From NCBI GenBank assembly GCA_022655215.1, contig JALCUE010000002.1:550386-614385 (forward strand): a stretch of 64,000 nucleotides of DNA, read 5' to 3'. Of the stretch, positions 38,521-43,556 are shown piece by piece. Position 1 is the stretch's first letter; each line of letters begins with the position of its first letter. Below the pieces are notes generated by a model. It ran no database searches and was not told the origin of the DNA. It saw only the letters and a program-made list of their open reading frames with translations. A program made the translations under genes and the position numbers. The stretch comes from Atopobiaceae bacterium. Its GTDB lineage: Bacteria > Actinomycetota > Coriobacteriia > Coriobacteriales > Atopobiaceae.

Positions 38521-39297
38521 ATGAACGAGACCAACAACAGTTCGATGGCAGTGCTCATCGACTACGAGAACCTGGCGTTGGGGACCGGCAAGCGCAAGCG
38601 CAACGGTCACCAGGAGCCGGGACCCCTGCCAGACGTGAAGCGTATCCTGGAGCGCCTGGTGGACAAGGGCCGCATCGTGTCGAAGCGTGCGTACTGTGAT
38701 TGGCAGCGCTTCGAGGATGCGGTGACGCCCCTGCATGAGCTCGGCATCGAGCTCATCGAGATACCCGACCGCGCCTACACCGGCAAGAATTCCGCCGACA
38801 TCCGCCTTGCGGTGGATGCCGTGGACATGTGCCTCACCAAGGCGAACATCGACACCTTCGCGATTCTCTCCGGCGACTCGGACTTCTCGCCCGCCGTGTC
38901 CAAGCTCAAGGAATACGGCCGCCGCGTGATCGGCGTGGGCATGAAGGAATCCACGAGCTCGCTTCTGGCCGAGAACTGCGACGAGTTCATCTTCTACGAG
39001 GACATCGTGAGCACCGGTGGCCTGCCCTCCTACGAGGGCAAGGTCAGCCGCGAGAAGGAGCCGTGCTATCAGCTGCTCCTCGAGACGATCGATGCCCTCC
39101 AGCGCGAGAACGACAGCGCGATCCTGGCCTCCCTGCTCAAGGACACGATGCGGCGCAAGCGCCCCCAGTTCTCGGAGGGAAGCTACGGGTACCGCTCCTT
39201 CACGGAGCTGCTCAAGGAGGCCGCGAGCCTGGGCCTCATCGAGATCCATCGGGACCAGCGGAGCGGGACGGCCGTCGTCGACGGCTTCTGCGAATAG
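38521..39297 (+). CDS. NYN-domain ribonuclease-like protein with C-terminal LOTUS (OST-HTH) domain
   Basis: A 258-residue protein. Residues 8-165 form a NYN/PIN-like domain with the acidic metal-site pattern: LIDYENLA (Asp near 14), CDWQRF, KNSADIRLAVDAVDM and ILSGDSDFSPAVSKLKEYG. Residues 180-255 resemble a LOTUS/OST-HTH domain, including the GYRSFTELLKEAASLGLIEI segment. NYN proteins (LabA, MARF1, DUF88) are predicted or shown ribonucleases, and LOTUS domains bind RNA, including G-quadruplex RNA. The pairing suggests a targeted RNA nuclease. Its place in an operon with a HEAT-like protein may indicate a complex. The ATG follows GGGAAAG. Confidence 0.88.
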   Translation: MNETNNSSMAVLIDYENLALGTGKRKRNGHQEPGPLPDVKRILERLVDKGRIVSKRAYCDWQRFEDAVTPLHELGIELIEIPDRAYTGKNSADIRLAVDAVDMCLTKANIDTFAILSGDSDFSPAVSKLKEYGRRVIGVGMKESTSSLLAENCDEFIFYEDIVSTGGLPSYEGKVSREKEPCYQLLLETIDALQRENDSAILASLLKDTMRRKRPQFSEGSYGYRSFTELLKEAASLGLIEIHRDQRSGTAVVDGFCE

Positions 39298-41159: not shown

Positions 41160-42245
41160 ATGGCAGACGATGAGAAGAAGGTCGAGACGGACGAGGAGCC
41201 CGAGGTCGACGAGACCAAGGACGATCAGACCGCCGATCAGGCCGAGGACGAGAAGGCCGAGGACACGTCCGACGACAAGGCCGATGACGAGGAGGCCGAC
41301 GGCGTCAAGTCGAAGGTGACCCCCGCGAAGAAGAAGCCCTCCAAGGCCAACAAGCCCGTGAAGTCGTCCAAGGATGACATCCCGGCACGTGCCGCCTCCA
41401 AGGTGACTCGCCAGAAGAAGGTCGTCTCCATGCCCGTCGCCATCATCGTGGCGGTGGCCTGCGTGGTCGTGGGCGCCCTCCTCGGCTACTTCGTGATCGG
41501 CAACCTGACCAGCAACCAGGTCAGCGGCAAGACCACCCTCACCGAGGACCAGCTCGACACCACGGTGGGAACCTACACGTACAACGGCAAGAGCTACACC
41601 ATCAGCGCCCGCGACGCGATCACGAGCTCGTCGAGCCTTGACTCGGCCAAGAACGATGACGGCACCTACAACATGCCGTCGGCCAGCACGATCCTCTCCA
41701 AGGCCCAGAACGGCATCCTCTCCCTCGAGGTCGAGGCGCAGGGCATCGAGGTCACCGATGACGACATCTCGAGCTATGCCACCTCGACGCTCAACACCGA
41801 TGACTATTCCTCCATCGCCTCCCAGTACAGCCTGGACGAGGACAGCGTCAAGGACATCCTCAGGCAGTCCTGCGGCGTGAAGAAGCTCTATGACCAGGTC
41901 GTCACCACCACGGTGACCACCTCGCCCACGGCCCCCACCGCGCCTTCCGATGGCAACAACGACGAGGCCACCGCGGACTACGGTGCCTACATCGTGAACC
42001 TGCTCGGCGATGAGTGGGACTCGACCAACAACACGTGGGCCCGCACCGACGGCCCGTTCTACTCGTCCATGTCGAGCATGCAGTTCACCAGCGACTCCGC
42101 CACCTACACGCAGGCCGAGACGGCCTACTACGTGGCCTACCAGCAGTACTCGCAGAGCTCGAGCAACGCGAGCACCCAGTGGACCGACTACGTGAACGGC
42201 CTGCTCTCCAAGGCCTCGATCACCATCGACTCGCTCGTCTCCTAA
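41160..42245 (+). CDS. membrane-anchored SurA-N-like protein with acidic cytoplasmic tail
   Basis: A 361-residue protein. The first 48 residues are almost entirely Asp, Glu, Lys and Thr; a Lys/Pro-rich segment follows, then one membrane helix (about 92-114). The outer domain has helices (about 140-245) resembling the N-terminal chaperone domain of SurA/PrsA-type foldases: AQNGILSLEVEAQGIEVTDDDISSYA and LDEDSVKDILRQSCGVKKLYDQVV. No peptidyl-prolyl isomerase domain follows; instead there is a Thr/Pro linker and a Ser/Tyr-rich C-terminus. A role as an extracytoplasmic folding helper is inferred from this resemblance only. The ATG follows AGGAGG, and it is a single gene with its own terminator. 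Confidence 0.72.
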   Translation: MADDEKKVETDEEPEVDETKDDQTADQAEDEKAEDTSDDKADDEEADGVKSKVTPAKKKPSKANKPVKSSKDDIPARAASKVTRQKKVVSMPVAIIVAVACVVVGALLGYFVIGNLTSNQVSGKTTLTEDQLDTTVGTYTYNGKSYTISARDAITSSSSLDSAKNDDGTYNMPSASTILSKAQNGILSLEVEAQGIEVTDDDISSYATSTLNTDDYSSIASQYSLDEDSVKDILRQSCGVKKLYDQVVTTTVTTSPTAPTAPSDGNNDEATADYGAYIVNLLGDEWDSTNNTWARTDGPFYSSMSSMQFTSDSATYTQAETAYYVAYQQYSQSSSNASTQWTDYVNGLLSKASITIDSLVS

Positions 42246-42308: not shown

Positions 42309-42365
42309 TTGGGTAGAAGGCTGAAAGAGCCAAACGTGACCGTTCCGAAAAAAGGGGAGTGACGG

Positions 42366-43556
42366 ATGAGGATCCTGGCGAGCAGATGCCTGTTGGGCGA
42401 TGACTGCCGCTATGACGGCGGCGCGAGGCCATGCGACGCCGTGAGGAGGCTCGCCTCGGTGGCTGACGTCATGGGCGTGTGCCCCGAGTGCGACGGCGGT
42501 CTGAGCTCGCCTCGGCCGCCTGCCGAGCGCGCCGGGGGCCGAGTCGTGCTCTCGGACGGCACCGACGTCACGGTCGAGTTCGCCCGTGGTGCCCAGGAGA
42601 CGCTGCGGCGTGCCCTCGATGCCGGCGCGACGCTCGCCGTTCTCAAGTCGAAGAGTCCATCCTGCGGCAGTAGGCTCATCTATGACGGAAGCTTCACGGG
42701 AAGTCTGACAAGAGGGGCGGGCGTAGCCGCCGAGCTCCTCGAAGGGGAGGGGATCTGCGTGGTGAGTGAGGACGAGGTCAAGGACATGAGGCCGTCCGTC
42801 GAGCATCCCGTCGCGATCGTGCTGGGAAGTGGCCTAGGCGCGCTCGCGCGCGAGGTCAAGCCCGTGCGACGGATAGACTATGCCGACATCGACGGGTTCC
42901 CCGTGGACGCGCGCCCGATCGAGGGCCATGTGTTCGAGGCGACGATCGGCACCGTGGATGACGTGCCCGTCGTGGTGTATCCCGGCAGGGTCCATCTCTA
43001 TCAGGGCTACTCCGCCGCCGAGGTCACGGCTCTGGTCCGCCATGCCCACCGTCTGGGCTGCCACGACATCATCTTCGCGTGCGCCACGGGCGCGGTCCCG
43101 GAGATGGCCGGCATCGGCCTGGGCGTCCTCACCGATCACATCAACCTCACGGGCACCAACCCGCTCGTCGAGCAGGATGACCTCTCCGACGTCGAGACCC
43201 CGTTCGCGGGGATGGCGGACGCCTACACCCCGTATCTGCGCGAGCTTGCCATCGGAGTGGCAGCCGACCTCGGCATAGAGCTCGGGAGCGGCGTCTATGC
43301 CGGTCTTCTCGGCCCCAGCTTCGAGACGCCCGCCGAGATCGGCGCCTTGAGGACGATGGGGGTCTCCTACGTGGGCATGTCCACGGTATGCGAGGTCATC
43401 ATGGCCCATGCGCTCGGGATGAAGGTGCTTGGGCTCACGCTCGCGGCCAACGTCGCGGGCGACCCGGACGTGTCCCATGAGACGGTGCTGGAGTGCGCCC
43501 ACGACTACGAGGACGACTTCGAGCGTCTCGTCAGGGGCGTCCTCCGGATGCTCTAG
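42366..43556 (+). CDS. fusion of a DUF523 (TudS-type) domain and purine nucleoside phosphorylase
   Basis: A 396-residue two-domain protein. Residues 1-140 are DUF523: SRCLLGDDCRYDGG with Cys8, GVCPECDGGLSSPRPPAE with Cys39, DVTVEFARGAQETL and LKSKSPSCGSRLIYDGSF with Cys100. DUF523 proteins include TudS, an iron-sulfur thiouracil desulfidase, and these three Cys are at the cluster-ligand positions. Residues 147-396 are a trimeric-type purine nucleoside phosphorylase: VLGSGLGALA, YPGRVHLYQGYSAAEV, TDHINLTGTNPLV, GPSFETPAEI and VGMSTVCEVIMA. The joined enzyme could cleave a thiolated nucleoside and remove its sulfur, which is an inference. The ATG at 42366 follows AAAAGGGGAG. Isolated by hairpins on both sides. 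Confidence 0.9.
   Translation: MRILASRCLLGDDCRYDGGARPCDAVRRLASVADVMGVCPECDGGLSSPRPPAERAGGRVVLSDGTDVTVEFARGAQETLRRALDAGATLAVLKSKSPSCGSRLIYDGSFTGSLTRGAGVAAELLEGEGICVVSEDEVKDMRPSVEHPVAIVLGSGLGALAREVKPVRRIDYADIDGFPVDARPIEGHVFEATIGTVDDVPVVVYPGRVHLYQGYSAAEVTALVRHAHRLGCHDIIFACATGAVPEMAGIGLGVLTDHINLTGTNPLVEQDDLSDVETPFAGMADAYTPYLRELAIGVAADLGIELGSGVYAGLLGPSFETPAEIGALRTMGVSYVGMSTVCEVIMAHALGMKVLGLTLAANVAGDPDVSHETVLECAHDYEDDFERLVRGVLRML

Follow-up and report, generated by a model that had tools for sequence, protein, structure and literature searches.

A gene that fuses a TudS-type desulfidase domain to purine nucleoside phosphorylase in Coriobacteriia carries a conserved internal start codon

TudS (DUF523, PF04463; PDB 6z92) is a solved representative of the 2-thiouracil desulfurase domain, and the TudS proteins characterised so far are stand-alone monomers. 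The iron-sulfur cluster of TudS is held by Cys10, Cys43 and Cys104, with Glu45, Ser101 and Ser103 as catalytic residues (PMC10611767). RudS (TudS-DUF1722), a tRNA 4-thiouridine desulfidase, also has an N-terminal TudS domain within a two-domain protein, its partner being the tRNA-binding DUF1722 (PMC11417400). The tally in that study gives 58.9% stand-alone proteins and 40.1% DUF1722 fusions, which leaves about 1% for all other arrangements. Trimeric purine nucleoside phosphorylases (PNPs; PRK08202/TIGR01697; PDB 3la8) are the closest described relatives of the other half of the gene studied here. Genes in which one frame carries a second start, from which the C-terminal part is made separately, have been shown experimentally for cas8/Cas11b (PMC11899642) and for bacterial N-terminal proteoforms (PMC11005335). 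In the literature searched, no description of DUF523 joined to PNP was found.

The gene lies in the window, a 64,000-nucleotide stretch of the genome of an Atopobiaceae bacterium. It occupies 42366..43556 on the + strand and encodes 396 amino acids plus stop. The frame starts with ATG, ends with TAG and contains no internal stops; a Shine-Dalgarno (SD)-like GGGGAG is located upstream of the main start (42354..42359, +; duplex energy -7.5). The initial annotation had described a single open frame with a complete DUF523 domain and a complete PNP, and the profile matches bear this out. Amino acids 3-137 (42372..42776, +) match PF04463 with 134 bits against a cut-off of 34.7, over profile positions 1-141 of 141 (Pfam). 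Amino acids 149-394 (42810..43547, +) match PF01048 with 130 bits against a cut-off of 25.1, over positions 2-233 of 233 (Pfam), and this half also matches the PRK08202 PNP equivalog of NCBIfam, 238 bits against a cut-off of 218, so that it belongs to the low-molecular-mass trimeric type. In a comparison with solved structures, TudS 6z92 was matched by the N-terminal half, and trimeric PNPs, 3la8 among them, by the C-terminal half. Between the domains, a linker of amino acids 138-148 (42777..42809, +) carries a P-S/T-x-E-H motif that is conserved in the alignment; it is preceded by C in most orthologues and by M in the window, and is retained by descendants that have PNP only. An AlphaFold2 model of the fusion, built from a two-sequence alignment, reached a mean pLDDT of 34, too low for the model to be used.

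The full-length fusion was found by protein search in 97 of the 398 sampled genomes of the class. Of these, 85 are among the about 116 genomes of f1, the family to which the window belongs, and 12 are from a second family, f3; the f1 proteins are 60-74% identical to that of the window, the f3 proteins 56-62%. Both halves are under purifying selection (dN/dS about 0.2-0.35). A join of two genes by sequencing or assembly error is excluded by the same full-length frame in 97 genomes together with this selection. At one locus (L086, G044) the gene is split within the PNP part by an apparent frame change. Outside the class, about 320 sampled genomes of the same phylum gave matches to the PNP part only and no fusion; a search of plasmids and phages likewise found no fusion. 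Among the searched genomes of the phylum, the domain order was thus seen only in Coriobacteriia, the confinement that the initial annotation had raised. Directly upstream of the fusion, positions 41160-42245 of the window encode an acidic, Lys/Asp-rich membrane protein; this neighbour is conserved in 39 of 52 loci and offers no functional clue. A protein with an NYN nuclease domain is encoded at 38521-39297, its C-terminal OST-HTH/LOTUS match being slightly under the cut-off.

The residues of the TudS active site are intact in the fusion. The three cysteines at positions 8, 39 and 100, which had been proposed as iron-sulfur positions, do align with Cys10, Cys43 and Cys104 of TudS, and in 50 aligned fusions they are kept wherever the position is covered. 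Cys8 (42387..42389, +) is a predicted [4Fe-4S] ligand. Cys39-Pro40-Glu41 (42480..42488, +) would hold the second ligand and the catalytic Glu, equivalent to TudS Cys43 and Glu45, and Ser97-Pro98-Ser99-Cys100 (42654..42665, +) the catalytic serines and the third ligand, equivalent to Ser101, Ser103 and Cys104. In the same 50 fusions Glu41, Ser97, Ser99, Arg15, Tyr16 and Tyr106 are invariant or nearly so, the last three being the equivalents of TudS Arg17, Tyr18 and Tyr110. Cys42 of the window was considered as a fourth cluster ligand and rejected, being unconserved in other fusions, as is Cys14. The equivalent of RudS Arg60 is conserved as well. Unlike RudS, the fusion has PNP as its partner and no tRNA-binding part; DUF1722 is absent from the window protein, whose C-terminal domain is PF01048 (Pfam). 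The known TudS pocket residues are identical in DUF523 domains fused to PNP and in those that are solo or fused to GNAT or DUF5662, so that the substrates to be expected are those common for TudS, 4-thio-UMP and 4-thiouridine. Judged by these residues, the TudS half would be a three-cysteine [4Fe-4S] desulfidase that most likely acts on 4-thiouridine or 4-thio-UMP, like the TudS enzymes characterised so far.

Other DUF523 arrangements were seen during the survey. A GNAT acetyltransferase (PF13302) is the fusion partner of DUF523 at L030, L014, L106 and other loci (f2, f10), an arrangement present in many genomes of another family. At four loci of f2 (L003, L005, L007, L009) the partner is DUF5662 (PF18907), a second combination that is undescribed. 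At L124-L131 and L133 (f12, f16, f20, f28), DUF523 is followed by about 170 amino acids without a Pfam match (WWEWRRRLHAWLWL...), and the position of TudS Tyr110 is Arg or Lys.

The PNP half resembles an ordinary trimeric PNP in its catalytic and base-binding residues. The PNP residues in the window are S155, H188, R208, H210, Y212, F280, E320, M338, S339, N362 and H371, so that the residues for phosphate, ribose and base are retained (S33, R84, H86, Y88, F159, E201, M219, S220, N243 and H257). The deviations from the PNP set are Cys for Asn115 and Ala for Thr242. Asn243 is the main 6-oxopurine determinant of PNP, and human PNP with Thr242Ala has similar inosine kinetics (PMC6128611). Of 50 fusions, 48 have Asn at the position of Asn243, and the Glu201 and Asn243 equivalents are kept in nearly all. 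By sequence, the base-binding residues are thus those of an ordinary 6-oxopurine PNP. The fusion differs from trimeric PNPs in its added N-terminal TudS domain and in the NAAGG motif, which is CATGA-like; the replacement of Asn115 by Cys in this motif is found in most fusions, is typical of the subfamily and could alter phosphate binding.

In a PNP tree from which long or degenerate rows were excluded, the PNPs of the fusions, the PNP-only genes of genera g14 (f1) and g33 (f3), and two genes of family f9 group together in a single clade, separate from the class's canonical PNPs (100% ultrafast bootstrap, 96% SH-aLRT). Both f9 genes adjoin DUF523 directly on the same strand. These genes (L085, 1838-2626, -; L110, 2008-2850, +) no longer have the purine contacts (E201L, N243S/H), and their substrate is therefore probably not a 6-oxopurine nucleoside. 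A canonical PNP is additionally present in one f9 genome (G370) and in one f1 genome (G341, with 4% contamination). In the window's genome, the PF01048 proteins are only the fusion and one MTA phosphorylase, and no purine nucleoside phosphorylase besides the fusion was found there. No IU nucleoside hydrolase and no PF00591 protein was found in this 92%-complete genome.

The nucleotide sequence near the domain junction was compared across the fusion genes. A GTG at codon 132 (42759..42761, +), just before the linker, is preceded by an SD-like GGGGAGGGG inside codons 127-129 (42744..42752, +; pairing to the anti-SD -11.0 in the window). All 94 distinct fusion genes have a start codon at position 132, in 81 of them GTG and in 13 ATG; GTC, GTT and GTA do not occur there. 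In the first 50 genes it was GTG in 48 and ATG in two, with GTG making up 55% of Val codons there; in a hold-out set of 44 distinct genes fetched separately, with reading frames chosen by BLAST, it was GTG in 33 and ATG in 11. At the next codon, also Val, the codons GTT, GTC and GTA are all freely used. Codon 132 ranks first of 122 fourfold columns for fewest third-base changes in the 94 genes (median 0.27 per gene). The single change counted there, a GTA in L055, is an alignment slip caused by an extra Glu codon that shifts the column, and the start of L055 is GTG. Among 32 representatives below 85% identity, codon choice at codon 132 gave the lowest p-value of 216 columns (5e-9, with kinship ignored); a Ser column comes near to it owing to its split codon box. 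Gly129 is GGC in none of the 94 genes, though GGC makes up about half of Gly codons.

Pairing to the anti-SD GGATCACCTCCTT, which was found in the window's genome, is stronger upstream of codon 132 than at any other of 384 codon positions in the orthologues (mean -9.95 vs -2.9 kcal/mol) and exceeds that at the main start (-6.7). Local RNA structure at codon 132 is weak, ranking 4 of 360, and weaker than in synonymous shuffles in 26 of 32 genes. Synonymous shuffles of the SD stretch still pair with a mean of -9.1, the Glu-Gly residues partly forcing the stretch, and GNAT fusions of DUF523 have an SD-like stretch of -8.2 without a start codon. Thus only the invariance of the start codon, the usage at Gly129 and the controls are specific. 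The controls are genes that carry one half only. In DUF523 genes without PNP, the column of codon 132 is TGC in genus g6 (5/5) and GTG or GTA in genus g16; in both, Gly129 is GGC (8/8) and the SD is weak (-2.6). In PNP-only genes, ATG stands at the codon homologous to 132 in six of 11 (L087, L088, L089, L090, L092, L096), some of them with a clear SD, and the start is located elsewhere in the other five. A start signal that is conserved at codon 132, is gone where PNP is absent and is ATG in most PNP-only genes points to two products. The gene would thus probably yield both the TudS-PNP protein and a free PNP of 265 amino acids (42759..43556, +), matching the normal length of trimeric PNP. In contrast to cas8/Cas11b and the N-terminal proteoforms, the internal start of TudS-PNP is predicted from sequence comparison, and its predicted C-terminal product is a metabolic enzyme.

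The history of the two halves was followed in the DUF523 tree. There, one clade (99% SH-aLRT) unites the DUF523 domains of the fusions with the DUF523 proteins of g6 and g16, which are without PNP. The position of g6 within the clade is weakly supported, and g6 may therefore be a never-fused sister. The simplest history suggested by these comparisons is that neighbouring genes were fused in an ancestor of f1 and f3; later, DUF523 would have been lost from g14 and from some of g33, and PNP from g16 and perhaps also from g6. At one PNP-only locus (L096) a DUF523 remnant is found just upstream (E about 1e-8). The C-terminal tails of the g16 DUF523 proteins are visually suggestive of PNP, the best match (E 0.48) being not significant. 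Either half has been lost independently, in more than one lineage, so each is useful alone.

Taken together, we favour, with moderate confidence, a gene for two separate salvage activities with two products. Initiation at ATG 42366 would give a bifunctional TudS-PNP protein, and initiation at GTG 42759 a free PNP of normal length. The PNP part would phosphorolyse 6-oxopurine nucleosides, and the TudS part would remove sulfur from thiolated bases, nucleosides or nucleotides that are set free when tRNA is turned over. The two activities would probably work side by side, not sequentially on one molecule. We would conjecture that the internal start lets PNP trimers assemble with fewer than three TudS domains. 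ThiI makes 4-thiouridine (s4U) in tRNA; it is encoded in the window's genome and in 387 of the 398 genomes of the class. Being nearly universal there, it makes co-loss with DUF523 no discriminator for s4U as the substrate.

The initial annotation had suggested a single enzyme for a thiolated nucleoside, or a purine-specific TudS, and this gained no positive support from a TudS pocket that is the same in fused and stand-alone proteins and from ordinary PNP residues. In its purine form, one enzyme would cleave thioguanosine or thioinosine and desulfurise the released base, with transfer between the sites; we regard this as unlikely. Trimeric PNPs accept 6-thiopurine nucleosides, and this property, together with the distinct PNP subfamily that neighbours DUF523 in f9, keeps a thio-nucleoside reading in play. 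The differing base-binding residues in f9, and the canonical PNPs of G370 and G341, by which the DUF523-associated PNP is not merely redundant there, also favour it, and a separate PNP subfamily fits a specialised substrate equally well. However, the pocket is of the uridine type, DUF523-only and PNP-only descendants exist, and the conserved internal start should release an uncoupled PNP, which works against obligate coupling. A natural origin for thiopurine nucleosides in these hosts is not known to us. The independent losses and the unchanged TudS pocket make separate salvage activities the better supported reading. A shade less probable again is a gene that makes a sequential TudS-PNP, with phosphorolysis followed by iron-sulfur desulfidation of thionucleosides, together with a free PNP by which the balance between the activities is set. 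If true, no coupled thionucleoside phosphorylase-desulfidase would have been described before it.

It is improbable that the PNP part phosphorolyses the thiopyrimidine nucleoside 4-thiouridine to 4-thiouracil, which TudS would convert to uracil. The window's genome has no other pyrimidine nucleoside phosphorylase or hydrolase of the two families searched, the f9 neighbours are without purine determinants, and cytidine is a possible substrate of SmPNP2, a trimeric PNP in which residues are changed (PMC6128611); the purine contacts at the Glu201 and Asn243 equivalents are nonetheless retained in nearly all fusions. Codon 132 might instead be an unused relic of a separate PNP gene from before the fusion, since an origin from overlapping genes would leave such a start signal. 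This is still harder to credit, as dS is about 0.8-1.3, near saturation, yet not one of the 94 genes shows a synonymous change at codon 132, while the codon has switched between GTG and ATG several times, with a change of amino acid, and the signal is gone where PNP was lost. Least likely of all is an iron-sulfur domain turned sensor of oxygen or iron that regulates PNP without desulfidase activity, as its fusion to a metabolic enzyme in anaerobes and the oxygen-labile clusters of TudS (PMC11417400) would suggest, for a sensor would not need the conserved catalytic Glu and both Ser.

TudS-PNP is a TudS fusion without description in the literature searched; its conserved internal start is the greater surprise. 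Should both halves prove active, TudS would here for the first time be part of a nucleoside phosphorylase, and the fusion protein would be an undescribed double enzyme that recycles RNA building blocks. The start at the junction offers a sharp and inexpensive test of a two-product gene in roughly a hundred species from gut and rumen, and it illustrates that a gene whose annotation is a plain fusion can also be a source of one enzyme by itself. The fusion also makes the disposal of thiolated tRNA nucleosides by these anaerobes testable.
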